Shown piece by piece: positions 37,108-63,988 of a DNA stretch of 64,000 nt. This DNA is from Sphaerisporangium rubeum (lineage in GTDB: Bacteria; Actinomycetota; Actinomycetes; Streptosporangiales; Streptosporangiaceae), in NCBI RefSeq assembly GCF_014207705.1, contig NZ_JACHIU010000001.1, positions 744,001 through 808,000 on the forward strand. The letters are read 5' to 3'. A model generated the notes under the pieces. That model was not told the origin of the DNA, made no database searches, and saw only the letters and a list, made by a program, of their open reading frames with translations. How positions within the stretch are numbered: the stretch's first letter is position 1; every line of letters begins with the position of its first letter. The translations under genes and the position numbers were made by a program.

Positions 37108-38421
37108 GACAAGGCCCGTGACCTCGCCGCCAAAGGCGTCACCGGCGTGGCCGTCACCTGGGTCGACACCAGCGGCATCACCCGCGTCAAAGCCGTCCCC
37201 TTGGACCGCCTCCCGCACGCCGCCGCCTGGGGCATCGGCGCGTCCCCGGTCTTCGACACCTTCCTGCTCGACGACTCCACCGTCCAGGGCCGCTTCGCCG
37301 GCGGCCCCGTAGGCGACCTGCGCCTCCACCCCGACCTCGACCGCCTCACCCCGCTGGCGGCCCTCCCCGGCTGGGCCTGGTCCCCCGCCGACCGCTACGA
37401 CCAGCACGGCGACCCCCACCCCCTGGACGCACGCCACCTGCTCCGCCGCGAAGTGAGCAAACTCGCCGCCGACGGCCTCACCGTACGCGCCGCCTTCGAG
37501 GTCGAATGGGCCGCCTCCATAGGGGACGGCGACGACTTCACCCCCGCCTGCACCGGCCCCGCGTACGGCATGACCCGCCTCACCGAACGCGCCGACTACC
37601 TGCGCGACATCATGGAAGCCGTAACGGCCGCTGGCATTGAAGTACGGCAGATCCACCCCGAATACGCCGCCGGCCAGTACGAGATCTCCGTAGCCAAAGA
37701 CACCCCCATAGCCGCCGCCGACACCACCATTTTGGTCCGAGAAACCATCCGCGCCATAAGCCTCGACCACGGCCTCCGCGCCTCGTTCTCCCCCAAGGTC
37801 CTCGCGGACGGCGTAGGAAATGGCGGCCATGTGCACCTGAGTCTGTGGCGCGACGACACCAACCTGATGACCGCCGGCGAAGGCCCCCACGGCCTGACCA
37901 AAGAAGCCGAATCCTTCACCGCCGGCATCCTCACCCACCTCCCCGCACTCCTCGCCATAGGTGCCCCCTCAGTAGCGAGCTATCTCCGCCTCATCCCCTC
38001 CCACTGGGCCGGCGCCTACGCCTGCTGGGGCCTGGAGAACCGCGAAGCCGCCCTACGCCTCATAACCGGCGCAGAAGGCGAACACCACACCGCCGCCAAC
38101 ATAGAAATCAAATGCATAGACCAATCCGCTAACCCCCACCTGATCCTCGCCGCCCTCCTCGCCACCGCACAAACCGGCCTCAAAGAGACGACCCCCCTCC
38201 CCCCTCCCGTGACCACCGACCCGGCCACCCTCGACGACCAGCCCCGCCTCCCGACCACCCTGGACGCCGCACTCCGATCGTTCGAAGCCGACCCCGTCCT
38301 GACCGAAGCCTTCGGCGAAGCCGTCATCGACACCATCACGACCGTTCGCCGCGGCGAAATCGCCTTGTTCGCCGACGCCACCCCCGAGCAGATCGCGTCC
38401 CGCACCCGCTGGCGGCATTGA
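36940..38421 (+). CDS. glutamine synthetase family protein (gamma-glutamyl ligase-like)
   Basis: This protein has up to 493 residues and contains a type I glutamine-synthetase catalytic domain from about residue 55. Motifs seen: VTWVDTSGITRVKAVPL (beta-grasp), GQYEISVAKD with metal-ligand Glu, ASFSPKVLADGVGNGGHVHL (ATP/Glu loop, in pieces SPKVLADG and NGGHVHL), IPSHWAGAYACWG, ENREAALRL and IEIKCIDQSANPH. Such paralogues ligate glutamate to amines or similar. The first 56 residues are four tandem 14-residue repeats (MDRPERDRRATPAP and variants) with ATG at 36940, 36982 and 37024, so the real start could be any of these. It pairs with the divergent amidohydrolase, as in FluG. Confidence 0.85.
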   Translation: MDRPERDRRATPAPMDHQERDERTEPAAMDRQERGQRAEPAGLDRPERDRRAALARDKARDLAAKGVTGVAVTWVDTSGITRVKAVPLDRLPHAAAWGIGASPVFDTFLLDDSTVQGRFAGGPVGDLRLHPDLDRLTPLAALPGWAWSPADRYDQHGDPHPLDARHLLRREVSKLAADGLTVRAAFEVEWAASIGDGDDFTPACTGPAYGMTRLTERADYLRDIMEAVTAAGIEVRQIHPEYAAGQYEISVAKDTPIAAADTTILVRETIRAISLDHGLRASFSPKVLADGVGNGGHVHLSLWRDDTNLMTAGEGPHGLTKEAESFTAGILTHLPALLAIGAPSVASYLRLIPSHWAGAYACWGLENREAALRLITGAEGEHHTAANIEIKCIDQSANPHLILAALLATAQTGLKETTPLPPPVTTDPATLDDQPRLPTTLDAALRSFEADPVLTEAFGEAVIDTITTVRRGEIALFADATPEQIASRTRWRH

Positions 38422-38922
38422 GTCGACCACGCCTGCCTGGATGTGTGTTTATCCACAGCTTGTGAATGGGCTACATGGACGCTGTGGCGTAGGTGCTGTC
38501 GAGGTATGAGGCTAAGTGAAACTTTCACGACTTAATGCGGACACCGGTACACGATCGGAACACGGGTAGCTAGAAACCATGATGTGCCGCAAACGGTGAT
38601 CAAACGTTCAATCGGACATACTCATGCGCTACGAGCGCCACTCCTCTAATCTACTGTCACAGTGATCTCGGCATGTGCTGATCGAACTTATGTTCGCGAC
38701 ATTTCTGGGGGTGGGAGTCGTTACGGTCAGAAATAAAGTTCTGCTGCGTATGTCCTAAACGTTCGCCTCAATAGATTAATTGGTGGCTTGTCTGTCTGGC
38801 GGCAAGAGCTACACCGATTGGCGTAATTAGTCAAGGTATAAGCATTGTTGCTTTACTTTGGATGCCATTTCTTGTTAGCATGCAGACGGCCCCGATCTGA
38901 TGTAGACAAGGAGACGGGCTTC
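38422..38922. promoter_or_regulatory. 501-base AT-richer leader region of the defence cassette
   Basis: Base composition drops sharply after the glutamine-synthetase gene and stays lower until about 41.4 kb, marking the left edge of acquired DNA. I find no gene in it. It holds the LexA-type box at 38682-38697 and several A/T-rich candidate promoter segments (for example GGTATAAG at about 38835-38842). No direct repeat, tRNA or integrase gene marking an attachment site is visible. Confidence 0.6.
38682..38697. promoter_or_regulatory. LexA-binding SOS box
   Basis: TCGAACTTATGTTCGC matches the actinobacterial LexA consensus TCGAAC-N4-GTTCGA at 11 of 12 defined bases (only the final A is C). It lies 225 bases upstream of the first gene of the MazG/kinase/HhH/radical-SAM operon and is the only good match noticed in the window. 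Placement implies DNA-damage induction of the cassette; this is inferred. Confidence 0.7.
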
Positions 38923-39249
38923 ATGTTGCAGTTGGGGGCCGACCCGGGACTCAATGCGATTCAGGACTATGTCCAAAAGCTGGAAGAAGAGCGCGGCTTC
39001 ACGGGAAACAGCGTACAGCAAACCGCGCTGCTGCTCGGCGAGGAGATCGGCGAGCTGTTCAAGGCCCTGCGTAAGCAGCAGAAAATGGCTATGGACAGCA
39101 AGTCCAACGTCGGTACGGTCGAAGAGGAACTGGCCGATATTCTCATCTACCTGTGTGCGCTTTCCAACAGACTGGGCATAAACCTGGAAACCGCCTTCAG
39201 AGACAAGGAGGAGATTAATAAGCTGCGTACTTGGAGCACCGGTGCGTAG
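38923..39249 (+). CDS. MazG-like nucleotide pyrophosphohydrolase
   Basis: A 108-residue all-alpha NTP pyrophosphatase-like protein of the MazG/dUTPase-2 superfamily. Metal-binding glutamates are in LGEEIGELFKAL (EExxE, about residues 40-51) and EEELADILIYLCAL (ExxxD, about 70-83), followed by KEEINKLRTW near the C-terminus. Length is that of a single MazG domain. Start ATG at 38923 has AAGGAG nine bases upstream; the longer in-frame extension is unlike the family. First gene of a four-gene operon; predicted role is hydrolysis of a specific or aberrant (d)NTP to the monophosphate. Confidence 0.85.
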   Translation: MLQLGADPGLNAIQDYVQKLEEERGFTGNSVQQTALLLGEEIGELFKALRKQQKMAMDSKSNVGTVEEELADILIYLCALSNRLGINLETAFRDKEEINKLRTWSTGA

Positions 39250-39288
39250 CCGAGGCCGAGATCTTTGATACTCAGCTAAGGGGACCCG

Positions 39289-39924
39289 ATGAGTGGGCCA
39301 ACGGGCTTGTTCGTCGCTGTGGACGGTCCAAAGCATGCCGGTAAGACATCGGTACTTCCATTGGTGGTCCAGCTCCTACGTCAGCGACGGTACTCGGTCT
39401 TGCTCACCAAGGAGCCGACTCCCGCTTTTGATCTGACGAACGAAGAGCGGCACAACGGTCTGGCCCTGGCGGAGCTGCTGGCTGCTGACCGAGCCCAGCA
39501 CCTCAGGCAAATCATTGTTCCTGCGCTTGGTACAGAAGACGTGGTGATCACTGATCGTTACATCGCTTCATCTATGCATTTTCAGGTGCAGGATGGCTTG
39601 TCATTCGATCAAGTGCGGCAGTTGAACGCAGATTTTATATTACCGGATATCAACATATTTATGATGGCGGACGAATCCAGCCTGGATTCACGTCGTAGCC
39701 GCCGAGGCGTCCTGACGCGATTCGACGGTGTTGGCGACTTTGCCGGGGAGGTCAGCTCATGGCGAGTCGTAAAAGGTCACATGGCGAGCTGTGGTGTGCA
39801 GGTGGTCATCATACAGAACAACGACGACGTCGCTCCTGAGCAGACCGCGTACACCATGGCCAAGGTGATAATGGAGCGGTTGGAGGAGGTAGGGAATGGG
39901 CGGCCCGAGTCCACTTCCTATTGA
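39289..39924 (+). CDS. thymidylate-kinase-like P-loop nucleotide kinase
   Basis: A 211-residue P-loop kinase of the dTMP kinase family. Walker A is GPKHAGKTS (residues 13-21), preceded by FVAVD; KEPT follows strand 2 as in Tmk, and VITDRYIASSMHFQ (DRY/H motif) binds the nucleotide. A LID region rich in arginine (DSRRSRRGVLTRFD) lies near residue 140. It differs from housekeeping Tmk in its divergent substrate regions, so it may act on another or a modified nucleotide. The HhH gene begins 29 bases before its stop. The organism surely has its own tmk, so this is an accessory copy. Confidence 0.85.
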   Translation: MSGPTGLFVAVDGPKHAGKTSVLPLVVQLLRQRRYSVLLTKEPTPAFDLTNEERHNGLALAELLAADRAQHLRQIIVPALGTEDVVITDRYIASSMHFQVQDGLSFDQVRQLNADFILPDINIFMMADESSLDSRRSRRGVLTRFDGVGDFAGEVSSWRVVKGHMASCGVQVVIIQNNDDVAPEQTAYTMAKVIMERLEEVGNGRPESTSY

Positions 39925-40408
39925 GGATATAACTGATGAGCCTACTGCCTTCGCATTTCTGCTTGGAGTGCTGTTCAACCAGCGCATGAAAGCGGAGCGG
40001 GCATGGCGTGCACCCTATGAATTGAGCTCACGAATTGGCGGGATGGGTCCAGACAAAATTCTGGTGCTTCCGTTGCCGGTGTTTACCGAGCGATTCGCAA
40101 GCCCTTTTGCCATACACCCTTTCAAGTTCGCGATGGCGGAAAATACGTACCGAGCGGCAGAGATCGTGTCAGCCGATTATGACGGAGACGCGCGAAATAT
40201 CTGGACAGATGTCACTGCCTCGCAGTTCACCGCGCGACTGCAGCGGTTCCCAGGGATAGGGGCCGGCAAGGCGCGTGTCGCCCTCTTCGTTGCAACGGTT
40301 GCCCTGGGTATAAGAGTGCGTGCCGATTCCGGCTTCTACAGTATAAAGTCTTGCGGCAGTCTCGCCGCGCTCTATCATCCTGTTCACCAGCCCTTGCTGG
40401 TCAACTAG
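39896..40408 (+). CDS. HhH-GPD-type DNA glycosylase-like protein (TIGR03252-like)
   Basis: A 170-residue helical protein. An N-terminal FLLGVLFNQRMKAERAW segment resembles the opening helices of HhH-GPD base-excision proteins, and LQRFPGIGAGKARVALFV (about 115-132) is a helix-hairpin-helix; D144 in RVRADSG is a possible catalytic acid. No iron-sulfur cysteine cluster is present. ATG at 39896 has GGAGG just upstream and overlaps the kinase gene by 29 bases. It is closest in feel to the uncharacterised actinobacterial HhH-GPD family TIGR03252. Predicted to bind or excise damaged or modified bases; substrate unknown. Confidence 0.72.
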   Translation: MGGPSPLPIEDITDEPTAFAFLLGVLFNQRMKAERAWRAPYELSSRIGGMGPDKILVLPLPVFTERFASPFAIHPFKFAMAENTYRAAEIVSADYDGDARNIWTDVTASQFTARLQRFPGIGAGKARVALFVATVALGIRVRADSGFYSIKSCGSLAALYHPVHQPLLVN

Positions 40409-40428
40409 GTAAAGAGGAGAGTCGAAAG

Positions 40429-41406
40429 ATGACGGAAGGATTATTACCAGACCTGCACTTCGATGATGATGACCAGTGTTACAAGACGGACGATGAGCTC
40501 GGCGTCGAAGATCTCGTCGCGTCGATGGACCGACCGTTGAGTGCGACCTACCAACTGACGCGGGAGTGTAATCTCCGTTGCACCTACTGCTCCGAGCCCC
40601 CGGGAATCAGCAGTAGCTCACTCGACCAGCACAAAGAGAAGATCGATAAGCTCGTCGGCATGCGTCGCATAATTTTGTCCGGCGGTGAGCCGATGGACTC
40701 TCCATACTTCTGGGAGATACTGGAGTATGTCCAGAGGAAGTTCGAGCTGATCGTTCTTTCTACTAATGCGACACGCATAGGCCGGGAAGAGGCTTTACGC
40801 CTCAAAAGTATGGTCGATTACGTCGACGTTACCGTGGATGGCCCCCGGCGGCAGCATAACCGGATTCGTGGCCAGTACGACGCCGTTGTCGACGGTCTTA
40901 TGCATCTTCGCCTCGCCAGGATACCGCTGTCCGTGATCTGTGTATACATGCCTGAAGAAAAACTCGACGGGTCCAACCTTCTCAAGACACCCCGGCCAGG
41001 CAACCGTGATGTCATACATTACATTTGTCAGCAGGGCGATATGCTCGGTGCCAAGAAGGTGAAGATACTCACTCCGATCCCCAAGGGCCGGAGTGCCGGT
41101 TTCTTCGAGGATTTCGCCACTGGACCGGAGTTGGAAGAGCTCGCCGATTTCCTTACGGCCGAGAAGAAGAAGAACGGCTGGAAGGTCCGTATAGTGATCT
41201 CGGATTGGATGAAGATCGGCCAAGGTCACGCGTGGCTTATCGAGCCCGACGGTCGAGTGATCGCATCACCTGTTTGGGATCAGGCGAACTGCTTGGAGCG
41301 CATAGGCGATCTTTCTGATCAGAGCAGCGCCGAACTGTGGAGACGCTACCCTTACAAGCAACAGCACCTCGCCAAGTATCTGGAGCGCACGTTGATCGTG
41401 CGGTAG
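40429..41406 (+). CDS. radical SAM enzyme
   Basis: A 325-residue radical SAM protein. The cluster-binding motif is CNLRCTYC at residues 47-54 (CxxxCxxC), with the SAM-binding GGEP at 85-88 and LSTNAT downstream; the barrel continues with VDVTVDGPRRQHN and ILTPIPKGRS. No SPASM/Twitch cysteine cluster is visible; only one late Cys (ANCLERIGD). Start ATG at 40429 has GAGGAG nine bases upstream, 20 bases after the HhH gene stop. Its closest look is MoaA/PqqE-type; it lacks viperin-type NYKCGFC. Substrate unknown; the neighbours suggest a nucleotide or nucleic acid. Confidence 0.85.
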   Translation: MTEGLLPDLHFDDDDQCYKTDDELGVEDLVASMDRPLSATYQLTRECNLRCTYCSEPPGISSSSLDQHKEKIDKLVGMRRIILSGGEPMDSPYFWEILEYVQRKFELIVLSTNATRIGREEALRLKSMVDYVDVTVDGPRRQHNRIRGQYDAVVDGLMHLRLARIPLSVICVYMPEEKLDGSNLLKTPRPGNRDVIHYICQQGDMLGAKKVKILTPIPKGRSAGFFEDFATGPELEELADFLTAEKKKNGWKVRIVISDWMKIGQGHAWLIEPDGRVIASPVWDQANCLERIGDLSDQSSAELWRRYPYKQQHLAKYLERTLIVR

Positions 41407-41509: not shown

Positions 41510-42850
41510 TCACGTGCGGGTCGCTGACTCCCCGCTCCAGGTGACGTGAAGGCGCAAGTCGTTGAGGAGCGTCGGCAGAACGGTCTCCTCGTGAATGGCG
41601 ATGTTCCGGCGGCTCATGACATCCGCGAGAGCGGGCTCCCAGGGGGTGGGGGCCGGTGTGCCGGTCAAGGGGAGCACCATGTCCGGTGGACGGGTGGTCA
41701 CGGCGTTCGAATAGTCGTCGGCGCTCATCCGCCATGGCTTCGCGCCGATCGTGAGCAGGCGTGCCGTGATGGCGACTCCAGGCCAGTCGAAATCACCGTG
41801 GTAGTGCACGGTCACGCCGCCGTCGATGAGTCGTCGCAGTGTCGTCAAGGCCGCTACGGATGGGTTACCCGCGAAGCAGATCAGCGGGACCGGCACCTCG
41901 GTCCGCGCGGCTGCCTGGAGGATCTGGGGGTTCTCGCAGGCGAAGACGTGTGTCCCTGGGACGGACAGGTGCTTGTCCTTCGCGGCGCCGCGAAGTTCGT
42001 ACAGGCTCAGATGGGTCACGAGCTTCAGACCGGCGCGAACGCGCATCATCTCCGACCAGGGGTCGGGGCCAGGTGGCCGCAGGTACCAGCTGAGCACGCT
42101 GCTGGACAGCAGATCCGTCGTCACCCCGAGCCGTGCCCATAGGTTGCGGCGTTCCTCAGCCGACACGGGTGCGGGGACGCCAGAGGCGGCGGCTGCTGCG
42201 CGGAGCATCAGCGAACTCGCGAGGCGTCCGTCGTCAAGGGCATGTGCGTCGCCGGCGCATCGTCCGGCCAGCTCGGCCAGTTCCCAGCTTGACTGAGTCG
42301 TGTCGGCCGCAGCGAAGAGCGCGCTCGACGCCGTGCATTCGGCCAGAACGGCCGAGAACTGCGCGACCGCTACCGTGGCGGCTTCGACACCGGCCCGAGT
42401 CAGCAGTCCAGAGCGGCGTACCCCCTCGGTGAACGCCGGAGCCCAGTCCGCGTCCACGACTCCGGCCACGGATAGAGCGGCGTCCAACGCGGCCCAGATG
42501 CCGGCCCAGGAGGCGCGCGCTGTCTCTCTGGCCGCCACGCGGTCGACGAGATCGCCTTCGGTGAGCTGTCCGACGACCGTCACCAGGCCGGCGGCGGCAG
42601 GAGATGATCGCAAGGCAAGGTCGAGCTCGTTGAGGGGGACGCGGATCCGTCCGGCGGAGAATGACTTGCCGAGCAAGCCGGAAAGCCTGTCGGCCCCGCG
42701 CTCGTCCAACGTGACGAGAACGGTGCCTGTCACGGCCAGCCTGCCGCGTTCTAGCTTGGTGCATACCGCGGCCCACAGCGGTGCGAGGCAGGCGTCGGCG
42801 AGATATTTTCGAGTCTTCTCTGGCAGGTGATGCCGTGTCGGTCCGCTCAT
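41510..42850 (-). CDS. jetD: Wadjet-type JetD, DUF3323/DUF2399 TOPRIM-like nuclease (TIGR02679)
   Basis: A 446-residue protein of the TIGR02679 family, the nuclease of the DUF2397-DUF2398-SMC-DUF2399 cluster classed among Wadjet systems. The C-terminal half is TOPRIM-like: acidic HVFACENPQILQAA near residue 300 and HGDFDWPG (DxD) near residue 350. In Wadjet, JetD cleaves plasmid DNA held by the SMC complex. The ATG at 42848-42850 overlaps the SMC-gene stop as ATGA. It ends 103 bases from the convergent radical SAM gene. It appears full length, with no frameshift. Confidence 0.88.
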   Translation of the reverse strand: MSGPTRHHLPEKTRKYLADACLAPLWAAVCTKLERGRLAVTGTVLVTLDERGADRLSGLLGKSFSAGRIRVPLNELDLALRSSPAAAGLVTVVGQLTEGDLVDRVAARETARASWAGIWAALDAALSVAGVVDADWAPAFTEGVRRSGLLTRAGVEAATVAVAQFSAVLAECTASSALFAAADTTQSSWELAELAGRCAGDAHALDDGRLASSLMLRAAAAASGVPAPVSAEERRNLWARLGVTTDLLSSSVLSWYLRPPGPDPWSEMMRVRAGLKLVTHLSLYELRGAAKDKHLSVPGTHVFACENPQILQAAARTEVPVPLICFAGNPSVAALTTLRRLIDGGVTVHYHGDFDWPGVAITARLLTIGAKPWRMSADDYSNAVTTRPPDMVLPLTGTPAPTPWEPALADVMSRRNIAIHEETVLPTLLNDLRLHVTWSGESATRT

Positions 42851-45800
42851 CGTGCGGCTCGCAGGTGACGGTTGTGGCCGTCCCAGTGCATGTGTGTGGT
42901 CACGGCGGCTGTTCCTTCGCCGCGCCGGATCTCGTAGCAGTCCAATGCGGGAACCTGCTCGTAAAAGCCCCACAACGCGTGGCCGGTCATGGCGAAGTCG
43001 AGGTCGAGACGGACCAGCAACCCCATCAGCTCGCCGATCGTCGGATCGTCGACCTTGGCGAAGGCGTCGTCGAGCAGGATGAGCCGAAGAGCACGTGACG
43101 TGTCAGGCAGTCCCGACAGGTACGCGTCGGCGGCGCCGAAGAGCGTCACGTACGACACGAAGCGGGTCTCCCCCTGACTCAGCTTGGCGCGACGGCTGAT
43201 TTTCCGCTCCTGGCCCGGCTCCGGTCCGGTGATGAAGACCACCACCTCATGCCAGGCGCGGTAGTCCAGGGCCGATTTCAAGTGGTCGGCGTATCCCGCG
43301 GTGGGATCTGTCGCGAAACGCCGTTCGACGCGGGTCTTGAGAAGGTCGGTCAGTTCCTCGGTGAGATCTGGGGCCCGCACATCGTCGGCTATCGCGATCA
43401 GTTCGCGGATCCTCGTGACATCCGCGTCCACGCCTTCGGCGAGACTCCAGCGAAGCCGGACTCCGATGCCGTGGCTGGTACGGATATCCGCGAGGGTCGT
43501 GTTCATCGCCTTGATCAGAGCTTCCGCCTGGCGGAGTCGCTGCCGGAGTTCCTCTGCGACACCGCCGACCACGAATTCGGTGAAGATATTCCTCTCGCGC
43601 TCGGTCAGTGCTTTCTTGCCTTTGGTTCTGCGGTGCTCCAGATCGGCGGCGGCCTCCGGCAGCGAGCGCCGGCCGTTGGCGTCGGCGATCGCCATCAGCC
43701 TGACACCGTCCTGCACCGTGGAGATGACATCGAGCTCCCCGGAGAGTTCACGTTCCGCGTTCTGCTGAGCACGAATCAGGACATTCTCGTCGGCGAGTCG
43801 GCCATCTCGGCCGATCGCGGCAAGCACCTCCGCGACGCCGGCCTCGACACTCGCGGGATCGCTTTCCGTGATCGTGAGCTGGAAGCGTGGCTGTCCGGTC
43901 GCGGATGCCGCCAGCCCCGGCAGCCCCAGCCGGGTCGTCAGTTTTCCCGCCGCCTCGATGAGGAGGCGGCGGGTCTGTGTGGCCGTGTCTCGCGCGATTC
44001 GCGCCTCAGCCTCAGCGGTGCCTTTCCGCTCGGCGAGGCCGGATGCACGTGTCCGCATTTCCTTCAGATCACGACGGCACGCCGTCAATTCCGTCTCAGC
44101 CGCACGCAGCTCCTTACGCACGGTTTCGGCCTCGACGCCGATGCTGGAGCTCAACGCCGCAAGTTCGGCGGCCTCCCCCTGCCACGTCACCCATTGTGTC
44201 TCGGCTGTCTCCTCGGCTTCGCGTCGTTTCAAGCGGGCGGCCTCGCACTCCGCCACGGCCGTCACGTGGGTGCGTATCCTGCGCCGTGCCTCAGTGAGGT
44301 ACCGGACGCTGCTCTCGCACAGATGTAAGGATTCCTGAAGCGCGTGACGTGCGGCGGCGAGTTCCTCGGCCGAGTCCGGCAGGCCGAAGTCGGCACACGC
44401 GTCCCGGTGTGCGGCAAGGGCTTCGGTCCATTCACGGCGGAGCCTTACCGCGGCCCCCCGTTCCTTGCGTGCCTCCGCCTCGGCCTTCTTCGCCTGACGT
44501 TCGCCGGCCGTGACAAGGACTTCGGCTGTTCGCACTGCATGACCGCGCGGAGCGGAACGCACCAGCGCGTCGAGTTCCTGGCGTTTGCCGAGCAGAGCCG
44601 ACTGTTGGACGACGCGAGCCTCGGCGGAAGCGGTCAGCATGGCGAGTGACTCGTCGATCTCGGCGATTCGTGCGGCTCTGGCGGCGGCTCGGGTGGCTGC
44701 GCCGATGTGCCGGGCCGTCGTCGCTCGGTGGCGGCCGGCCAGAGGACCGTTGCCCCATGCTCCATCGGTGTCCACCCAGGTCGGGTGACTGCGATCGTTC
44801 AGCGCGATCCTGGAGAGCACGCCACGGACCTGCTCGGCGGATAGCCGGCTTGTCGGGTCTGGAGTCAGCGCTTCATTCAGGGAGCACGTCGCCATGGGGC
44901 CGGTAGGACGCAGGAGTAACTGTCCGTCGGAGGCGATGAGAGCGCCATCGGTGGTGATCGTGGCCGTGAGCAGTCCCGATGCGAGCAGGGCGGCTTCAAG
45001 GCCGGCACGTTGCGGTGCGTCGAGATGGGAAGCGAAGTCCACGGCGCGCCACAGTGGCACCTCTCCCTCGGACGGTACGCGTGTCCAGTGTGGCGCCGGG
45101 GGATCGGGGTCGTGCGCGGCGAGCAGCCCGGTCCGCTCCGCCATCAGCTCTCGACGTTCCTTGTCTTCGGTCTCCTGCGCTATGTCGAGTAGGTAAAGCT
45201 CGCGGGAGATCTCGTCGTGGACCGGGGAGGAGGCCCGCGCGGCGACATCCTCGAGTTCGGTGAGCAGATCGGCGCTGTCGCCACCGGTGAGCACGTCGGC
45301 GTTCTCCAGTACCGCTCTGAGCGCGGTGCGGCGCCAGTCGACGTCACTCAGCAGTTCTCTGGTGGCCTCCGCATCCAGCCACGCACGCCATGAGCGCGCC
45401 AAGGCGAGTCCGGCCTCGTCCCTGGCCTGCTCCTTCTCTGCCACCTCCTGCAGTAGGTCGGCGAGGCGTTGCTCCGCCTCAGAGGCGCGATCGTCGGCTG
45501 TCCGCACCCTGAGCGCCTGCTTGTCAAGGCGCTGGGCCTGATCCAGCCGCGCTGCCGCGTGTACGTTCCGCTGCCGCGCCGCCTGCGCCACCGACTTCAC
45601 TTGCTCGACGGTCCCGCTGAGGTCCTCAGGCGTCACTTCGAGGCGGACGGGTGCCGGCCGGGTTACCGGCTCCGGGTCGGAGTGCAGGGTGGGCCTGGAC
45701 ACCTCCACTGATCCCGGCTGGTCGATTCGGACGCAATCGACGTGAGGCAGGGATGCGTGGAGGCCGGCTCGCGACAAACAGTCGCGTGCCTCTGCCATGC

Positions 45801-47067
45801 CGGCGACGGCGTCGCCGGTCGCTTCCACGGCCTCGGCGGCGCATTCGTCGGCTTTTCTCACCTTCGCGTGCTCGTTGTCCCCGGCGGTGTTCGCGGCTTG
45901 GATGGCCAGCTCGGCGGCGCGCTCAAGAGCCCGGACCGTCTGCTCCCTGTCCTCCAGGTCTCTGGCGTCGCCGTACTCCTTGGACCCGCGGATGCCTTCC
46001 ACGGTCCTGCTCAGCTCGTCCTCGGTGGCCGCCAGCTCTCCCACGCGTGCCTCGGTCAGGGAGTGCTCCTCGGTCAGCCGCAGGTGTATGTCGCGGGCTT
46101 CATCGGCCTCCCGTTCGGCTTCTGTCACGGCTACGGCGGTGGCCTGGGTGGCCTTGGCGGTCTCGCTCAGAACCCCTGCGGCGTAACGCCGGTATGTGTC
46201 GAGGAAGGCGGCCACCACGCGGTGTGCTGTTTCCAGGCGCTGCTGAGCGTCTCGTGTCTCCGAGAGCTCGTCGAGCCGTTCACCTGCCCGGCCCAGTGCG
46301 GCCTCGCTCGGCGGCGGCAGCGCGTCGGACAGAATCTGCGGCAGCTTCCCTTCGTCGATTCGGTTGCCGACGTCGGGAGACCGTAGCGTACGCAGAAGCT
46401 GGAGCAGGCCGGCGAAACGGTCCTTTCCCGAGTCACCCGGCAATCCGAAGATGGCCGTCCGGACACGCTCGCGATGAATCTCCGGCGAATCGGTGATCCG
46501 ATCCGCACCGATCAGGCTCGCCAGATCATCCCGCGACAACGGAACGCGGTCCTCACTGAGAAGATGAAGGTCATGCCCCACCCGGTTCGGCGTCGTGAAG
46601 TACCACGCCTTCGCTTCCCCTGCGGACCTCGAGAACCGAATCAATGCCCCAAGGGTGATGTGTTCGCGCTGCGCCGCACCACCCTGCGTCACCGTGGTGT
46701 CGTCACCATGGCGCATGAGTTCGAGCCACAGGTATCCCAGCCGGTTCTGCTGGTCGTCACCGCCGACCCGCATGAGGTCTTCCAGTCGGACACGGCCCGA
46801 TCCGGTGGCGTCCATCTTGCGGCGGTCGGCGTCGAGGAGGAACGGCAGAAGCATCTCAAGCGCACGGGATTTCCCCGAGCCATTGGTGCCTCGCAGCACC
46901 ATCCTTCCACCGGAGAACTCGAACTCGGTGTCGTAGTAGTACCAGACATTGACGACGCCGGCCCGATGAAGGCGCCACCGATGTGGATGATGCTTGGCCG
47001 GAGTCATTTCGACGCCAACGGGACCGCCGGTCAGGGGAACGGTGTGTGCACGGCTCAGGATGGTCAT
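42847..47067 (-). CDS. jetC: Wadjet-type JetC, SMC/SbcC-like ATPase (TIGR02680)
   Basis: A 1,406-residue SMC-like ATPase. The N-terminal half-site has Walker A GTNGSGKS at residues 60-67; a long arginine/glutamate/alanine-rich coiled coil fills the middle (about 300-600 and 900-1150); the C-terminal half-site has the signature SQGE near 1297 and Walker B LRLILLDDAFAKVDD near 1327-1341, then the switch-like TGHALWGFYE. In Wadjet the SMC motor senses and extrudes small circular DNA. Start ATG 47065-47067 has GGAG five bases upstream, 16 bases after the DUF2398 gene. All expected ATPase motifs are intact. Confidence 0.92.
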   Translation of the reverse strand: MTILSRAHTVPLTGGPVGVEMTPAKHHPHRWRLHRAGVVNVWYYYDTEFEFSGGRMVLRGTNGSGKSRALEMLLPFLLDADRRKMDATGSGRVRLEDLMRVGGDDQQNRLGYLWLELMRHGDDTTVTQGGAAQREHITLGALIRFSRSAGEAKAWYFTTPNRVGHDLHLLSEDRVPLSRDDLASLIGADRITDSPEIHRERVRTAIFGLPGDSGKDRFAGLLQLLRTLRSPDVGNRIDEGKLPQILSDALPPPSEAALGRAGERLDELSETRDAQQRLETAHRVVAAFLDTYRRYAAGVLSETAKATQATAVAVTEAEREADEARDIHLRLTEEHSLTEARVGELAATEDELSRTVEGIRGSKEYGDARDLEDREQTVRALERAAELAIQAANTAGDNEHAKVRKADECAAEAVEATGDAVAGMAEARDCLSRAGLHASLPHVDCVRIDQPGSVEVSRPTLHSDPEPVTRPAPVRLEVTPEDLSGTVEQVKSVAQAARQRNVHAAARLDQAQRLDKQALRVRTADDRASEAEQRLADLLQEVAEKEQARDEAGLALARSWRAWLDAEATRELLSDVDWRRTALRAVLENADVLTGGDSADLLTELEDVAARASSPVHDEISRELYLLDIAQETEDKERRELMAERTGLLAAHDPDPPAPHWTRVPSEGEVPLWRAVDFASHLDAPQRAGLEAALLASGLLTATITTDGALIASDGQLLLRPTGPMATCSLNEALTPDPTSRLSAEQVRGVLSRIALNDRSHPTWVDTDGAWGNGPLAGRHRATTARHIGAATRAAARAARIAEIDESLAMLTASAEARVVQQSALLGKRQELDALVRSAPRGHAVRTAEVLVTAGERQAKKAEAEARKERGAAVRLRREWTEALAAHRDACADFGLPDSAEELAAARHALQESLHLCESSVRYLTEARRRIRTHVTAVAECEAARLKRREAEETAETQWVTWQGEAAELAALSSSIGVEAETVRKELRAAETELTACRRDLKEMRTRASGLAERKGTAEAEARIARDTATQTRRLLIEAAGKLTTRLGLPGLAASATGQPRFQLTITESDPASVEAGVAEVLAAIGRDGRLADENVLIRAQQNAERELSGELDVISTVQDGVRLMAIADANGRRSLPEAAADLEHRRTKGKKALTERERNIFTEFVVGGVAEELRQRLRQAEALIKAMNTTLADIRTSHGIGVRLRWSLAEGVDADVTRIRELIAIADDVRAPDLTEELTDLLKTRVERRFATDPTAGYADHLKSALDYRAWHEVVVFITGPEPGQERKISRRAKLSQGETRFVSYVTLFGAADAYLSGLPDTSRALRLILLDDAFAKVDDPTIGELMGLLVRLDLDFAMTGHALWGFYEQVPALDCYEIRRGEGTAAVTTHMHWDGHNRHLRAAR

Positions 47068-47083
47068 GACCTCTCCACGGTTC

Positions 47084-48304
47084 TCAGTCGGCGACCAGCA
47101 GTTCTTGGACGTACCGCGGACCGTCGTTCAGACGCTGCTTGGAGCGTGTCGTGGCCGGTGTGTGCACCGCGGGACGGTACCGGGCCGCGGCGGGATGGAC
47201 GATGAGGCCGTCGGTGACGACGGTCACCAGGCCCACCGATCGCAGCAGGTGGACGACGTCGTCGCGCAGCCGCCGGGGATCGTCGAGTACGTCGCCACGC
47301 CACGCCTTGGCGTGGACGCGTGCGAGATTCCTGAGGCGGTCGTCGATGACGGGCCAGGGGGCGAGCACACCGGGTAAGGTCCGGCCGTCGAGGGTCGACT
47401 GGGTGGCCGCGTCCGGCTGGAGGCTGTCGATGAGCGCGGCGATGAGAAGCAGCGAAGCCTGCCGTACCGTCCCGGTACCGGGGAACGCGATGTCGGTGAG
47501 TTCTTCGTCGGTGTCGTAGGCCAGAGCACCTTCAGCGCGGACCTCCAGGCTGAGGCCGAAAATCTCGTCGAGGACACGCGTGAGTTCCCTGCGTTCCCTT
47601 CTCAGGACGTCGCGCTCGGCATCGCTGAGATCACTCCGATGCGACACCGGGTTCTCCACCAGCTTGCGGCGCAACGTGATCCGGGGCTGCTCGGGTGTGT
47701 CGGGATCCACGGCCCACATCAGGCTCGGCCAGTCGAGATCATGCAGTGGTCGTTTGATGAGGTGAGGCAGCAATCCCCTGGTGATGGACAGCAGCGCCTC
47801 ATCGTGGCGCTCGCTCCAGGCCGCCACGGTTCCATCTGTTTCGCTCAGCACCCCCCACGACACGAGAAGCTCGATCGCGGTGACGAGGTCGCGGCGTTCG
47901 GCGAGGGTGTCGTCGAACGTGAGTCCGGTGGCGGCCGCGTCGGTCCGGATCTGTGCGACGAGCTGTGACAGCAGGATCTGCTCACCCACATCCCGCAGCA
48001 GCAGGCCGGCGCAGACCAGCGAGAGATAGGTGTAGGTCCGCGGCGTGAACTCGGCGCCGGAGGAGCGGCGAGCCGGCCGGACAGGAGCATCGACGGAGAG
48101 CGGCGTCTTGGTGAGGCGCGCGAAACCGGATTCGACGACGAGAGCGTAACCGAGCACGCGTGCGAAGGCCTGTTTGAGCGTGCCGGCGTGCCGGCGTACG
48201 AGCGCGAGCTGCTCAGGGTGGCGATGCGCCGTGAGCACGGGCTGCTGGAGAAGCACCCTGGCGGCCCGGCGCCGCTCCTCCGCATCATGGGCCGCGGTGG
48301 TCAT
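47084..48304 (-). CDS. jetB: Wadjet-type JetB, DUF2398 family (TIGR02678)
   Basis: A 406-residue DUF2398 protein, corresponding to the KITE/MukE-like partner of the SMC complex in Wadjet. It is rich in winged-helix-type segments (VLLQQPVLTAHRHPEQLALV, RRDLVTAIELLVSWGVLSE); no enzymatic motif is visible. The ATG at 48302-48304 overlaps the DUF2397 gene as ATGA and is followed 16 bases downstream by the SMC gene. Assignment rests on cluster order plus the characteristic FTPRTYTYLSLVCAGLL segment. Confidence 0.87.
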   Translation of the reverse strand: MTTAAHDAEERRRAARVLLQQPVLTAHRHPEQLALVRRHAGTLKQAFARVLGYALVVESGFARLTKTPLSVDAPVRPARRSSGAEFTPRTYTYLSLVCAGLLLRDVGEQILLSQLVAQIRTDAAATGLTFDDTLAERRDLVTAIELLVSWGVLSETDGTVAAWSERHDEALLSITRGLLPHLIKRPLHDLDWPSLMWAVDPDTPEQPRITLRRKLVENPVSHRSDLSDAERDVLRRERRELTRVLDEIFGLSLEVRAEGALAYDTDEELTDIAFPGTGTVRQASLLLIAALIDSLQPDAATQSTLDGRTLPGVLAPWPVIDDRLRNLARVHAKAWRGDVLDDPRRLRDDVVHLLRSVGLVTVVTDGLIVHPAAARYRPAVHTPATTRSKQRLNDGPRYVQELLVAD

Positions 48305-49803
48305 CTCTCTGTTCCCGTCCGGTCGTCGTCGGCTCGAACATCGGTGGAGCCGTCGAGTGGTGTGACGTGCAGGCTTATGTCGTGGACTACGAGCCGGCCG
48401 TCATCGGAGTGAATGCGGGTCGCTCCACCCGGCCGAGGTACGGCGACCAGCGTGAGGCGCAGATCGGTGTCCGATGAGGTCACCGGACCGGTCAGATCAT
48501 GTGCGATGGCGAGCAGGCCGGAGAGCTTCTCGAGTAGCAGGTCGCGGGCCGCTCGGGAGATCCGCGCGTCGCTGAGATCACCCACTGCGACAAGCTCGGC
48601 CGCCGCACCCGCTTTGCGTTCCGCCTCCTCGCGTGCCTCCGCCAACAGCCGCTCACGATCGATACCAGGGTCGGGAACCCGTGCGGTACGGCCTCGTGCG
48701 GTCCGGTCCCCGCGTTCCCGCAGCGACACCGGCACATCCACGGGGTCGGTCTCCCACCACGACGTGGCCGGTGCGACGTCGGCCCCCGTCTCGTCGGGCC
48801 CCATGAGCAGGTGCCGGGAGGGGTAGGCGCCGAAGGCCGCCGCGAAGATGCGGTGCGCTTCCTCTGTCTCGGCCTCGGCGAACCACGCGGCGAGCCGGAG
48901 GAAGTCGTTGCGGCGGGAGACCCCGGTCTCTGCGGCGGCCAGCATGCGTTTGGCGTTCGCGAGGAGCTGGCCGAGCGCCTGTTCGGCGGCCGACCGCAAC
49001 TGGGCCGGTCCGGAGCGGCCTTCTCCGCCGCTGTACCAGGCACGCAGGTCGTGCCATTCGGCGGCTGTCCGGCCCGGTGATCGCTCCGCGGGGCTCCCGT
49101 CGGGGCCGGTGAGCTGAGGGAGCGTGGCGAGGGCCGCGAGAAGCCGGTCGAGATCGGTGATGACCCTTTCGACCCGATCGGCGACCGCAGGCGCGTGCCT
49201 GGCGACATCGGCTGTGATGAGATCGACGTACTGCAGAAGCATGGTCTTGAATTCCGTGTACTCCGATCCCGCCAGATCGTAGCGGGAGAGCACCTCGTGC
49301 AGATTGCTGTAGAAGTCCCGCACGCTCTCGGTGAACAACCGCTGGTTGTTGAAGACGGTCGTCACATCGGCGGCCAGCGCCTCCTTGTCCATGCGCCGTC
49401 GCTCGGCAAGCCGCGCCAGGATGCGGTCGAGGAGTTCGACGGTACGGCCGAGCAGTTCCCTGGCGACCTCGCGTGCGCCGTCGGTCGCGGAGAGCAGTTC
49501 CTCGATCTGCCGATGGACCCGGCCGCCGAGTTTGGAGACCTGATATCGGGAACGTGAGCGCAGCAATTCCGCGACCGTGGAGACCCGCGCGTCGCGCACC
49601 GACCGGACGAGGTTGCCCCACGCCTCCAGTTGCTTGCACCGCTGCTCCACGTCGTCCGCGATCATGACGACCCCGGCCTTGGCCAGCAACGCGGTGGCCT
49701 CCGCGGCGGACAGATCTGTGAGCAAGGTGTCGGTGAAGATCCTCATGAGCGCGATGTATTCATGAGCACACTTGTCCGCGGTGGCGTATCGATAAAGATC
49801 CAA
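48301..49803 (-). CDS. jetA: Wadjet-type JetA, DUF2397 family (TIGR02677)
   Basis: A 500-residue DUF2397 protein, equivalent to the kleisin/MukF-like subunit. It starts with LYRYATADKCAHEYIALMRI, typical for the family, and contains long helical regions plus a Ser/Arg-rich stretch. The only initiation codon in frame after the upstream TAA is TTG at 49801-49803, with no good Shine-Dalgarno; the codons before it (GLPPGIQAR) still look coding, so a rarer start (ATT) or sequence change upstream is possible. It is first in the jetABCD operon and overlaps jetB by ATGA. Confidence 0.85.
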   Translation of the reverse strand: MDLYRYATADKCAHEYIALMRIFTDTLLTDLSAAEATALLAKAGVVMIADDVEQRCKQLEAWGNLVRSVRDARVSTVAELLRSRSRYQVSKLGGRVHRQIEELLSATDGAREVARELLGRTVELLDRILARLAERRRMDKEALAADVTTVFNNQRLFTESVRDFYSNLHEVLSRYDLAGSEYTEFKTMLLQYVDLITADVARHAPAVADRVERVITDLDRLLAALATLPQLTGPDGSPAERSPGRTAAEWHDLRAWYSGGEGRSGPAQLRSAAEQALGQLLANAKRMLAAAETGVSRRNDFLRLAAWFAEAETEEAHRIFAAAFGAYPSRHLLMGPDETGADVAPATSWWETDPVDVPVSLRERGDRTARGRTARVPDPGIDRERLLAEAREEAERKAGAAAELVAVGDLSDARISRAARDLLLEKLSGLLAIAHDLTGPVTSSDTDLRLTLVAVPRPGGATRIHSDDGRLVVHDISLHVTPLDGSTDVRADDDRTGTER

Positions 49804-50132: not shown

Positions 50133-50924
50133 TCACCTTGAGAACGGCGGCCGGTCCGTCGCTACCAGGAGGCCTACGTCCGGCCGCATCAAGGCGCGCA
50201 GATGGGTGACGATGCGGGACACCGTGGCGGGGTCGCGGAGGATGACGCCGATCTCGATGTTGGACATGAGAGCGCGGGTGGTGAGGTTGGCGCTGCCGAG
50301 GAGGACGGTAGTGGTGTCGGCGGCGAGGAGCTTGGCGTGGAGTGCGGCGCCTTGGGGTCGGCGAGCGGGGGGCCAGGTCCAGAAGGTGGCCTTGCCGGTG
50401 AGTAATCGGAAGGCGTCGGCGCTGGAGGGGCCTCTGAGGGTGCCGCCTTCCTCGGCGGCCGTCTCCAGTACGAGGTCCACGCGGACGCCGCGATCCGCTG
50501 CGGCGGCGAGTTCCTCCGCGACCTCATGGACGCCGTACGCGGCGTAACTCACCACCAGCAGCGATTCCTTGGCGGCGCGCACGATCTCGGTGACGGCGGA
50601 GACGGTGAGGCGGACGGGGACGGCCTCGGTGGTGGGGCCGCTGACCACGACGGAGGGACGGCGCGCGGACTCCGTTACGTGGACGCGAGTGGCGGCCTCC
50701 AAGGCGAGTGCCACGCCGGAGCCGGATACCTCAGGTGCGTGGCGTCGCCAGGCGTCCACCAGGCGGATCGCCTGGGGCGAGGCGGAGGGACGGGACTCGA
50801 TCAGGCGGGGGAGCACACCGTCGGGGGTTTCGGCGGTCCGAAGAAGGGTGACCCAGGCCTTGAGATGGGAGAGCGGCAGGTCCGTGGCCAGGGCCGCGAT
50901 CGTCTGGCTGAGATGGCCGGTCAT
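50133..50924 (-). CDS. drmC: DISARM protein DrmC, phospholipase D-like
   Basis: A 263-residue phospholipase-D-superfamily protein. The HxK motif lies in ALHAKLLAADTTTVLLGSANLT (in pieces LHAKLLAADTTTVLLG and SANLT, about residues 196-217), giving one PLD half-site, so it probably dimerises. Such proteins act as nucleases in defence contexts; in DISARM, DrmC is dispensable for some phages. The ATG at 50922-50924 overlaps drmB as ATGA. The N-terminal 90 residues are helical and lack motifs. Confidence 0.87.
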   Translation of the reverse strand: MTGHLSQTIAALATDLPLSHLKAWVTLLRTAETPDGVLPRLIESRPSASPQAIRLVDAWRRHAPEVSGSGVALALEAATRVHVTESARRPSVVVSGPTTEAVPVRLTVSAVTEIVRAAKESLLVVSYAAYGVHEVAEELAAAADRGVRVDLVLETAAEEGGTLRGPSSADAFRLLTGKATFWTWPPARRPQGAALHAKLLAADTTTVLLGSANLTTRALMSNIEIGVILRDPATVSRIVTHLRALMRPDVGLLVATDRPPFSR

Positions 50925-52765
50925 GGCGGGAAGAAACCGGCGCCGCCACCGAGGATGGTGTCCACGAGCAGAGACCGGTCGAGGTAGTGGTTGCCGCGTT
51001 CGCAGGAGGTCTCGGCGGCGAACAGGCAGGCGTGGCACGCGGCGCCGTACAGCCGGCCGTGGGTCCGCGGGTCGTGGCCGGCGCACAGCGGGTCGGAGCT
51101 GCACAGGCGTGCCGCGTCCAGCGCCTGCTCGATCAAGGTGCCGAGACGGTCGTGGTGGCCGAGCGACACCAGGCCGCCGAGGGTGCCTTCGCTGTCGGGT
51201 GCGGCGGTGTACAGCAGCACACCGGCCATCTCGCGGTCGGGATCGGCGTAGACGCGCTCACCGATGCCGGAGGCGCCGTAGCCGCATTCCAGAGCGAACT
51301 CCCTGATCAGGACGTGAGCGAAGGTGTGCAGCAGCAGGTAACGCGCGCCGGGGAAACGACCCGGCGGCAGGCGCCGTTGCCGCCGCCACGTGTCGTGCGC
51401 GGTGGTCAGTTGGCGGACCCGCCGCTCGACCTCGCGACGTTCCTCCCAGCGGCGCAGGTTTTCCTCGGAGAACCTGAGGAAGATGCCTTCGCCGCGGGTC
51501 TCGGCACACGGCACCCACGTCGGCGGCGCCACCGACAGCGGCGCACGGCCGGGTTCGGAGCCGTCGACCACCCCCCACTCCGGCGCGTCGATGCGGGTGA
51601 AGCCGTACAGCGCGGCCACCTCGCGCAGCCGCGGCACCAGCGTGACACCGGCGAGCCAGTCACCCGTGCCAGGCGGTGTCCTGCCGCGCCGGGTGGTGAA
51701 GTCACGCAACTCGGTGCCGGTGTCGGCGGTGAACGCCTGCCACTCGGGGCCGCGCAGGTCGAGCGGGTCGGCGGCGGCCTCCCCCTCATGGACGCCGGCG
51801 TACCGGACGATCGCCTTCCACACCGCGTCGGCGCCGTACTGCTCCAGCTCCGGCCAGCACGACTGGGTCCGCATCAGTTGCTTGGCCACACCGGCGTCCA
51901 GCGACGCGAGCAGTTCGAGCTGACCCCAGTACTGCTTCACCATCTGGTCGAGCCCGGTACGCGCACGCGGCAGGCTGAAGACCCGCAACTGCATCGCGAA
52001 CCACGTGTTGGTGGCGCCGAGCGCGAGCGTGCGGGTAGCCGTTGTGCAGCCGTCCGCGGTGCCGAGATGCGGGTGCCTGCCGCGGCATCCTGGGAGGTTG
52101 CGTTCGGCCTTTTCGCCGTATGCCTCCGACATGGCCCGCGCATTGACCCCGCAGGAGCACTCGACGTAGACGTTGGCCGCCTCGCCGGACGTGCCGCGTT
52201 CCCGCAGCCGGTAAGTGTGCGGCTCGTCGGCGGGTGGCAGGACACCCCGGTGCACGAAGAAGGCCCACGGGAAGTCGTCCAGATGACCGCTCTCGCAGGC
52301 CAGCACGAACCGCGCCGGCACCGCCACCGGCCGGCTTCCGCCTTGTCCCTTGCAGCCGTGTACGTACCGCGTCTTCTCCGGCTGGTAGGCGTTCTGCACC
52401 AGCTCGAACACACCGGACGACGCCGGCGCCAGCCGGTTGCACTGGACCCGGGAGCACCGCAACCACTGGGGGAACAGCGTCACCGGAACCCCGACACGGG
52501 CCCACTCGTCGAACACGTCCCCGGTTTCCGGCAGGTACGGCGGCATGCGCAGGTGCTCCACCTGGTCGCCGAGCCTGGCGCGCACGGCGGCCAGCAGCCG
52601 GTCCTCGGTCACCTCCGCCGACCGTGACCGTTCCCAGAAGTCCAGCCCGAGCACCGTGACCGACAGGTTCGGCAGGTCGAGCACCGAGCCCACGCCGTAG
52701 GTGTGCAGCAACTGGCTCGGCCGCAGCTCACCGACCCGCAGCGGCCCCGAGGCGGTCGTCGTCAC
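50921..52765 (-). CDS. drmB: DISARM protein DrmB, DUF1998
   Basis: A 614-residue DUF1998 protein that forms the DrmAB complex with the helicase, sensing and processing incoming phage DNA. The N-terminal region has zinc-type cysteines (RCSRVQCNRL near residue 107; VECSCGVNA near 205) and the DUF1998 core has RYLLLHTFAHVLIREFALEC (about 472-492) and GYGASGIGERVY; a C-terminal cysteine set CHACLFAAETSCERGN may bind a further zinc. It starts MTTTASGPLRVGELRPSQLL and overlaps drmA by ATGA. Complete. Confidence 0.92.
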   Translation of the reverse strand: MTTTASGPLRVGELRPSQLLHTYGVGSVLDLPNLSVTVLGLDFWERSRSAEVTEDRLLAAVRARLGDQVEHLRMPPYLPETGDVFDEWARVGVPVTLFPQWLRCSRVQCNRLAPASSGVFELVQNAYQPEKTRYVHGCKGQGGSRPVAVPARFVLACESGHLDDFPWAFFVHRGVLPPADEPHTYRLRERGTSGEAANVYVECSCGVNARAMSEAYGEKAERNLPGCRGRHPHLGTADGCTTATRTLALGATNTWFAMQLRVFSLPRARTGLDQMVKQYWGQLELLASLDAGVAKQLMRTQSCWPELEQYGADAVWKAIVRYAGVHEGEAAADPLDLRGPEWQAFTADTGTELRDFTTRRGRTPPGTGDWLAGVTLVPRLREVAALYGFTRIDAPEWGVVDGSEPGRAPLSVAPPTWVPCAETRGEGIFLRFSEENLRRWEERREVERRVRQLTTAHDTWRRQRRLPPGRFPGARYLLLHTFAHVLIREFALECGYGASGIGERVYADPDREMAGVLLYTAAPDSEGTLGGLVSLGHHDRLGTLIEQALDAARLCSSDPLCAGHDPRTHGRLYGAACHACLFAAETSCERGNHYLDRSLLVDTILGGGAGFFPP

Positions 52766-56600: not shown

Positions 56601-56679
56601 ACGGGGGTCGTCGATCTATACTTCACGTAGATCTTATGTGATGATCACTCCGTTTTGCCTTCCCACCAGAAAGGCCGGA

Positions 56680-63370: not shown

Positions 63371-63988
63371 TCAAGGGGAGTTCGGTTCTATCGCCTTGAG
63401 TAATTCGTGCATGTTGGTGGAGGGGTTGTCGTGCGGGAAGGCGGTTTCGTCGCGTTGATGGCGTGCGGCGAGGTCTGCGGCGTTTCGTGCCGCCACGTGG
63501 CGTCGGTCCATGTAGCGGTCGGCGTCGAGGCGCTTTCCTTCCCTGCCGTCGAGTTCGCGGCTCCGGCGTTCGGCGTCCTTGGTGGACATGAACGCGTGCC
63601 GGCGTTCGTGGTGCAGAATCAGCCACAGCTCGAAGCAGGGGTTCGATATGACGAGACGGATGCCGTGCTTCTCGGCTAATCGGATGGCGGGTGCGAGGTT
63701 CGGGTGGTTCTGCGGCCATTCGACGTCGAACACGCACCAGCATTCGTCGACCTCGTCGTCCTGGCTGCGCTCGACCGCGCACTTCACCAGCTCAAGGGGA
63801 ACTCCCCATTCAGGGGCTATCTCTATGTTTATCGCGGTGTTGGCTCGAATGGCGGGGAGGCGCTTCAATGCGCTGATGTAGTCCGGCTCAGAGGCTTTTC
63901 CCTCACAGAATATGACCACCGTCTTGCGTTCCGGACGGGTCGCGGTGGTGCGTTTGAGCCCTTTCGCCGCCGTCCTGCGTGATGGCAT
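63371..63988 (-). CDS. rloB: RloB family protein (TOPRIM-like, abortive-infection associated)
   Basis: A 205-residue RloB protein. The N-terminal ETVVIFCEGKASEPDYISAL-like segment (read as VVIFCEGKASEPDY) and CWCVFDVEWPQNHPN supply the acidic E...DxE/D motif of the TOPRIM-like RloB nuclease; SNPCFELWLILHHE is the conserved RloB middle motif. RloB is usually encoded after an AAA+ ATPase (RloA-like). A TGA in the last bases of the window (complement 63995-63997) may be the stop of that gene, lying just outside. Start ATG 63986-63988. A fragment of a second copy lies at 56.3 kb. Confidence 0.82.
   Translation of the reverse strand: MPSRRTAAKGLKRTTATRPERKTVVIFCEGKASEPDYISALKRLPAIRANTAINIEIAPEWGVPLELVKCAVERSQDDEVDECWCVFDVEWPQNHPNLAPAIRLAEKHGIRLVISNPCFELWLILHHERRHAFMSTKDAERRSRELDGREGKRLDADRYMDRRHVAARNAADLAARHQRDETAFPHDNPSTNMHELLKAIEPNSP

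Follow-up and report, generated by a model that had tools for sequence, protein, structure and literature searches.

Do four adjoining genes on an actinobacterial chromosome form one biochemical system and, if so, what might that system make? The genes lie in a 64-kb stretch of Sphaerisporangium rubeum DNA (contig NZ_JACHIU010000001.1, positions 744,001 to 808,000), hereafter the window. They encode a MazG-like protein, a thymidylate kinase-like (TMPK-like) protein, an HhH-GPD-like protein and a radical S-adenosylmethionine (SAM) enzyme. A preliminary description of this DNA had proposed that the products act together in making, sanitising or excising a modified nucleotide. We find a single linked set, distinct from housekeeping genes, as indicated by co-location elsewhere and a separate tmk gene. 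This much of the proposal stands; its chemistry can be stated only conditionally. Nucleotide chemistry is strongly suggested, and a putative role in phage defence is likely. We judge the chances to be evenly balanced that the four genes are the type I member of a radical SAM-centred cassette making a modified (deoxy)nucleotide, for which the likeliest use would be as an anti-phage analogue.

A recurrent cassette around a radical SAM gene

Among 347 genomes of the same order, 14, including the window genome, encode the radical SAM protein. It is absent from all 10 other genomes of the genus. When used alone as a query against species-genome contigs, the protein returned no relatives, but these emerged when 84,980 species genomes and IMG/VR were scanned with an alignment. 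The scan added Herbihabitans and Phytohabitans, together with a larger sister branch. Type I cassettes combine TMPK-like, HhH and radical SAM genes with a MazG-family gene. They occur in Actinomadura, Thermomonospora, Herbihabitans and Phytohabitans, as well as in the window genome. Note that, in the other type I genomes, the MazG gene is mostly 3' of the radical SAM gene, rather than 5' as in the window operon.

The sister branch includes Streptomyces, Micromonospora, Frankia, Bacillota, Patescibacteria and Streptomyces phages of ~125 kb, such as Gilgamesh. Here, the radical SAM gene mostly retains a nucleotide kinase together with a NUDIX or MazG NTP pyrophosphohydrolase, and another family takes the place of HhH. 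Type II cassettes, of Actinobacteria and phages, consist of the radical SAM gene, an AAA_28-type kinase, a NUDIX hydrolase and two families that we label EXOA and EXOB, one of which is sometimes missing. Reduced sets are found in Bacillota and Chloroflexota (radical SAM and EXOB, with or without the kinase), in Patescibacteria (radical SAM and MazG, with or without EXOB) and in one alphaproteobacterial metagenome-assembled genome (radical SAM, EXOB and a MazG-like gene). The cassette is also present in rumen Bacillota. Judged from these matches, the family spans at least Actinomycetota, Bacillota, Chloroflexota, Patescibacteria and temperate phages. A. rubrisoli carries type I and type II cassettes in one genome, and its type I MazG frame apparently has two MazG-like domains.

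Partner genes were counted within 4 kb of each radical SAM gene. At 62 family loci, some of which are the same genome taken from two collections so that counts are not all independent, we found a kinase at 52, a pyrophosphohydrolase at 51, HhH or EXO at 60, and all three at 47. The equivalent counts at 29 loci encoding other radical SAM proteins were zero for each partner. Note that the neighbourhood hidden Markov models were trained on the family loci and score highly there by construction; only the comparison with control loci is informative. From the recurrent linkage, and the empty controls, we conclude that the four genes are one system and not chance neighbours. Homologues of the genes are co-located in many genera, as the preliminary description would predict, although the position of MazG mostly differs.

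The HhH gene (10 loci) and EXOA/EXOB (50 loci) are mutually exclusive across the 62 loci. MazG, a second MazG-like family and NUDIX alternate in the pyrophosphohydrolase slot, and either a TMPK-type or an AAA_28-type enzyme occupies the kinase slot. Since non-homologous enzymes replace each other in one slot, their shared activity, conversion of NTP to NMP and pyrophosphate, would seem to be what is needed. The pattern points to a nucleoside triphosphate as a probable substrate or product of the cassette.

In a maximum-likelihood tree, the window radical SAM protein falls inside the type I clade (100/100), although its branch is long; the phage proteins are nested in a Streptomyces group. This nesting, low GC content and absence from the 10 genus relatives are signs of mobility. 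On such signs, we consider the cassette to be horizontally mobile and widespread.

Streptomyces phage Gilgamesh (NC_073461) encodes a type II cassette as gp39-43. In this phage, and in related viral contigs, the cassette is directly upstream of the portal gene. Several IMG/VR viral contigs also have the complete cassette; among 50,697 phage records, it was found in one phage genome, that of Gilgamesh (two records). Gilgamesh has ParA/ParB and an integrase; a DNA polymerase and a thymidylate synthase are missing from its annotation, and it resembles a phage-plasmid that relies on host replication. Separately, its gp114 is queuine tRNA-ribosyltransferase-like and gp116 is PAPS-reductase-like; together, these could provide a second DNA modification pathway, of the 7-deazaguanine type.

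The encoded proteins

The family names first given to the four proteins are all supported by Pfam, NCBIfam, and AlphaFold2 models searched with Foldseek. The radical SAM enzyme matches Pfam Radical_SAM (PF04055, E=6e-19). Across 42 homologues, the only invariant cysteines are C47, C51 and C54, of the CxxxCxxC motif, and SPASM cysteines are absent. Hence, no auxiliary cluster is expected. Basic residues R80, R147, K210, K212 and K316 are also invariant in this alignment, with R140 and K219 nearly so, which suggests that the substrate may be phosphorylated. The AlphaFold2 model (pLDDT 90) has SkfB, anSME, SuiB and CTP-bound viperins as its best Foldseek matches. Further down is BlsE, a nucleoside-acting enzyme of blasticidin S synthesis. 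In having a radical SAM core with a single [4Fe-4S] site, and in lacking an auxiliary cluster, the enzyme shares a trait of viperin and prokaryotic viperins (pVips). Even so, the protein scores 35.9 bits against the NCBIfam prokaryotic viperin model NF038283, for which the cut-off is 180, and 38-46 bits with PADLOC pVip models. These curated scores rule out assignment as a viperin or pVip.

The kinase matches Pfam Thymidylate_kin (PF02223, E=8e-21), and the P-loop and DRY motif are kept in TMPK-like kinases of the family. Against TIGR00041, the model for housekeeping dTMP kinase, it scores 79.5-81.6 bits, under the cut-off of 83.25. A separate tmk, at genomic position 559784, scores 173 bits. 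The MazG-like protein matches Pfam MazG (PF03819, E=1.4e-7) with 32.1 bits, above the gathering score of 22, and the metal-binding motif EExxE...EExxD is seen in alignment. It is 41-47% identical to MazG proteins encoded 3' of the radical SAM gene in Actinomadura, and 49-59% identical to those encoded beside it in Patescibacteria. In the same genome, no other MazG-type protein comes closer than 31% identity. The objection that these genes are housekeeping orthologues is met by the separate tmk, the distant second MazG and absence of the radical SAM gene from the genus relatives.

The third protein matches TIGR03252 alone in Pfam and NCBIfam, with 76.2 bits (E=2e-21) against a cut-off of 136.5. 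Its AlphaFold2 model (pLDDT 78) has NTHL1, endonuclease III and AlkA as the best Foldseek matches (probability 1.00, best E=4e-4), and the HhH-fold queuosine enzyme DUF2419 is also among them. The model thus supports a predicted HhH-GPD fold. At the position of the Nth/OGG1 catalytic lysine, the cassette family has histidine, and the window protein glycine, with an invariant lysine one residue on. No conserved aspartate follows the HhH motif in the family alignment. So, of the earlier label 'base-excision-like', the fold is upheld and excision activity is not; a normal base-excision glycosylase is unsupported, with the catalytic residues missing. Given this, the protein might instead bind its target, use altered chemistry, or act on free nucleotides.

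The operon HhH protein is a clear relative of housekeeping TIGR03252 copies, ~28-37% identical, and the catalytic lysine position is missing in both. However, cassette proteins form their own branch, bound to the radical SAM cassette, with signatures FNQ, HPF, GIGxHKA and a C-terminal SCPRL. The motif GxGxQKA of TIGR03252 is FPGIGxHKA in this branch. Across the order, ~70% of genomes matched a TIGR03252-type HhH protein. Within the genus, the other 10 genomes gave no match, and the operon copy is the sole one in the window genome.

EXOA and EXOB are homologous to each other (hhalign 99.4%). Pfam matches for both are all under cut-off, and EXOB has invariant DxEWxKN and GHQxxxD motifs across phyla. 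We looked for evidence of a DnaQ/RNase H-fold exonuclease: a PDB profile search was empty, RNase_H_2 matched with only E=0.036, and hhalign against RNase_T was not significant, motif II aligning nonetheless. From the DxE and GHQxxxD motifs, we guess that these proteins may be exonuclease-like.

Regulation and genomic neighbourhood

Positions in the window are collected in Table 1. The four open reading frames are on one strand, separated by a 39-base gap, a 29-base overlap and a 20-base gap, exactly as first described. The lower GC content noted then is also evident: 55.6% for 38923-41406 compared with 68.6% for the window.

Table 1. The operon and neighbouring features, with positions numbered from the first base of the window.
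Feature	Position	Strand	Comment
Glutamine-synthetase-like gene	37144-38421		Directly upstream of operon region; in 7/10 genus relatives
LexA/SOS-type box TCGAACTTATGTTCGC	38682-38697		11/12 match; ~225 bp 5' of MazG gene
MazG-family NTP pyrophosphohydrolase-like protein, 108 aa	38923-39249	+	Pfam MazG; ATG start after AAGGAG
Thymidylate-kinase-family nucleotide kinase (TMPK-like), 211 aa	39289-39924	+	Pfam Thymidylate_kin; accessory paralogue
HhH-GPD-fold protein, 170 aa	39896-40408	+	TIGR03252-family paralogue; GGAGG before start
Radical SAM enzyme, 325 aa	40429-41406	+	Pfam Radical_SAM; single CxxxCxxC cluster motif
Wadjet JetD	41510-42973	-	
Wadjet JetC	42847-47067	-	
Wadjet JetB	47084-48304	-	
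Wadjet JetA	about 48301-49692	-	
DISARM DrmC, DrmB, DrmA	50133-56307	-	
AbiLii/RloB-like gene	63371-63988		Right window edge; PADLOC E=3e-26

The box upstream of the operon, TCGAACTTATGTTCGC, is present as claimed, matching TCGAACNNNNGTTCGA at 11 of 12 defined bases. It is the sole site with one mismatch or fewer in the window. The pattern TCGAACNNNNGTTCG has 7 sites in the 7.5-Mb genome, compared with 3 for a control pattern read backwards. Of the six besides the box, one is 114 bp upstream of recA and another lies between ku and a ligD-like gene. At genome density, the probability of a chance site in the 501-bp intergenic region is ~2-5 in 10,000. The box also agrees with the consensus tCGAAC-N4-GNNCGa from chromatin immunoprecipitation sequencing of Streptomyces venezuelae LexA (PMC9380542). 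Since the same pattern precedes recA, and occurs at ku/ligD, LexA control of the operon is credible in the window genome. Conversely, no site with two or fewer mismatches was found within 700 bp upstream of 15 related cassettes. This leads us to reject SOS control as a trait of the family. The DNA-damage induction first proposed is plausible for this genome, as a local feature at most, and the induction by phage attack proposed with it is conjectural.

The operon adjoins a Wadjet-DISARM-AbiL island, with the Wadjet genes downstream and convergent, followed directly by those of DISARM. The Wadjet set is complete, so that plasmid and phage defence are doubled up beside the operon. The island probably starts just after the glutamine-synthetase-like gene; sequence comparison with four genus relatives did not define its ends. 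Inside it, at 56638-61902, is a gene for a 1754-aa protein. This combines repeated DUF4082, laminin-G/lectin and Ig-like domains with a DNase domain of the NucA/NucB type at the C terminus, and resembles a large nuclease that is secreted or displayed at the cell surface.

We also examined other type I loci using PADLOC. Specific matches among 114 neighbours of nine such loci were to type I restriction-modification and DRT reverse transcriptase. By comparison, 112 genes of nine random loci, drawn from cassette-bearing actinobacterial genomes, gave only generic kinase, ATPase and similar matches. Neighbourhoods of type I loci thus point to defence, in line with the association sought at the outset, albeit in a small sample. 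For the operon itself, PADLOC 2.0.0 identified no convincing catalogued system: MazG and HhH had no matches, the TMPK-like kinase scored 17-22 bits, and the radical SAM enzyme had only the weak pVip match.

Proposed activity and competing explanations

The proposal of an antiviral nucleotide is modelled on viperin, whose partner, CMPK2, is a member of the thymidylate kinase family. Viperins convert ribonucleoside triphosphates to their 3'-deoxy-3',4'-didehydro forms. Like pVips and viperin-CMPK2, the cassette ties a single-cluster radical SAM enzyme to a nucleotide kinase, amid defence genes. For most of its length, the radical SAM model can be superposed on viperin structures (Foldseek template-modelling score 0.53-0.66 by query length). 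However, the surroundings of the cysteine motif differ (CNxxCxYCSEPPG), and the window cassette adds MazG or NUDIX, and HhH or its replacement. We know of no pVip operon that carries these.

A second set of parallels comes from phage DNA modification. T4-type phages replace a base using a dNTP pyrophosphohydrolase, a dNMP kinase and a base modifier. Thymidine hypermodification pathways involve the HhH-fold aGPT-PPlase, to which some phages add a radical SAM enzyme. The cassette resembles both in pairing a dNTP pyrophosphohydrolase and dNMP kinase with a base-modifying enzyme. Unlike them, it has no hydroxymethylase or thymidylate synthase homologue and is mainly on bacterial chromosomes, and none of the Pfam models for aGPT-PPlase matches its HhH protein.

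The use of nucleotide metabolism domains in defence also has precedent in DefensePredictor systems; thymidylate synthase, dNMP kinase, 5-hmdU kinase and NMAD domains were tested, with aGPT-PPlase and MazG predicted (PMC13092281). Those systems differ in composition, and the main text makes no mention of radical SAM (the whole word 'SAM' occurs 0 times; PMC13092281). Nucleotide-modifying defence is a kind already known (viperins; PMC13092281), of which the cassette would be a variant. The view that no named system has this composition agrees with our searches. No entry describing the four-gene set was found in Pfam, NCBIfam, PHROGs or PADLOC. In openly available papers, two earlier surveys of nucleotide systems aside, a search combining radical SAM, thymidylate kinase and MazG gave no match; searches for TIGR03252 and for Gilgamesh also gave none.

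In the mechanism we envisage, the radical SAM enzyme would modify a nucleotide. The TMPK-family kinase, for which the family activity is known and the substrate presumed, would phosphorylate the radical SAM substrate or product towards a triphosphate. MazG, or NUDIX elsewhere, would hydrolyse a triphosphate: the analogue, which would be cleared, or its normal competitor, which would be depleted. HhH, or EXOA/EXOB elsewhere, might recognise or remove the analogue from host DNA; this is the weakest, and a speculative, step. In the window strain, the cassette would be held low by LexA and released on DNA damage.

Several observations count against this mechanism. The top structural match of the radical SAM enzyme is SkfB, a peptide maturase, and NCBIfam scores place its sequence no nearer to viperin than to NirJ or mycofactocin maturases. 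The putative cassette substrate is deduced from neighbouring genes only. Because the SOS box is unconserved, regulation tells little about the cassette family, and the neighbourhood comparison was small, at nine loci against nine. Finally, a position beside the portal gene in temperate phages also fits DNA modification, or some other benefit to the lysogen.

We offer more tentatively, and with some doubt, the broader suggestion of a new immune or inter-element conflict family. In this, a non-viperin radical SAM enzyme would make the analogue, kinase and pyrophosphohydrolase would set its level, and HhH or EXOA/EXOB, as alternative modules acting on DNA, would protect the host genome. If an antiviral nucleotide is made, viperin would no longer be the only radical SAM enzyme through which chain terminators or base analogues arise in nature. 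The cassette would also be a source of new nucleotide drugs and enzymes, with the parts for self-protection in one operon. Should defence play no part, the linkage still predicts which class of substrate is used by a large, unassigned radical SAM family. It also offers a first functional setting for the EXOA/EXOB families and for a relative of the actinobacterial TIGR03252 HhH proteins.

Of the alternatives, DNA modification on the T4 pattern fares best, though we think it unlikely. The radical SAM enzyme would modify a dNMP and the kinase would convert this to the dNDP. Meanwhile, the pyrophosphohydrolase would destroy unmodified dNTP, and the modified base would be incorporated into DNA. Policing of the unmodified or modified base would fall to HhH or its replacement, and phage or island DNA would be protected. 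The enzyme set is the same as in T4-type base replacement, and complete cassettes are indeed viral in Gilgamesh and the IMG/VR contigs. However, the distribution is patchy on bacterial chromosomes and not typical of phages, as the single genome among phage records illustrates. Gilgamesh itself lacks an annotated DNA polymerase or thymidylate synthase and has the features of a phage-plasmid. Nor does the cassette have a conserved restriction partner.

Repair or sanitation, under SOS control, strikes us as improbable. Here, MazG and the kinase would clean and recycle a damaged nucleotide, HhH would excise it from DNA, and the radical SAM enzyme would convert or reverse the lesion. The credible LexA box fits, and sanitising and excision are classical tasks of the MazG, NUDIX and HhH-GPD families. 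Against this, other cassettes have no box, and the HhH family has neither the Nth/OGG1 catalytic lysine position nor the conserved aspartate. Furthermore, a rare, mobile and phage-borne distribution is unlike that of core repair.

We rate as quite improbable a nucleoside natural product, namely a secreted antibiotic or signal derived from a nucleotide altered by the radical SAM enzyme. The kinase and pyrophosphohydrolase would then activate the product or give self-resistance. Radical SAM enzymes do serve actinobacterial nucleoside antibiotics, BlsE is among the Foldseek matches, and NUDIX hydrolases occur in such pathways (for example, TunN of tunicamycin). Yet the cassette has no conserved neighbour that is a transporter, phosphatase or assembly enzyme; it is also found in Patescibacteria, rumen Bacillota and phages, and the window neighbours are defence systems. 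The last alternative, chance neighbours in a variable region, would suit a low-GC island of mixed gene content, but is refuted by recurrent overlapping or abutting co-location in many genera, seen at none of the 29 control loci, and we give it next to no weight.

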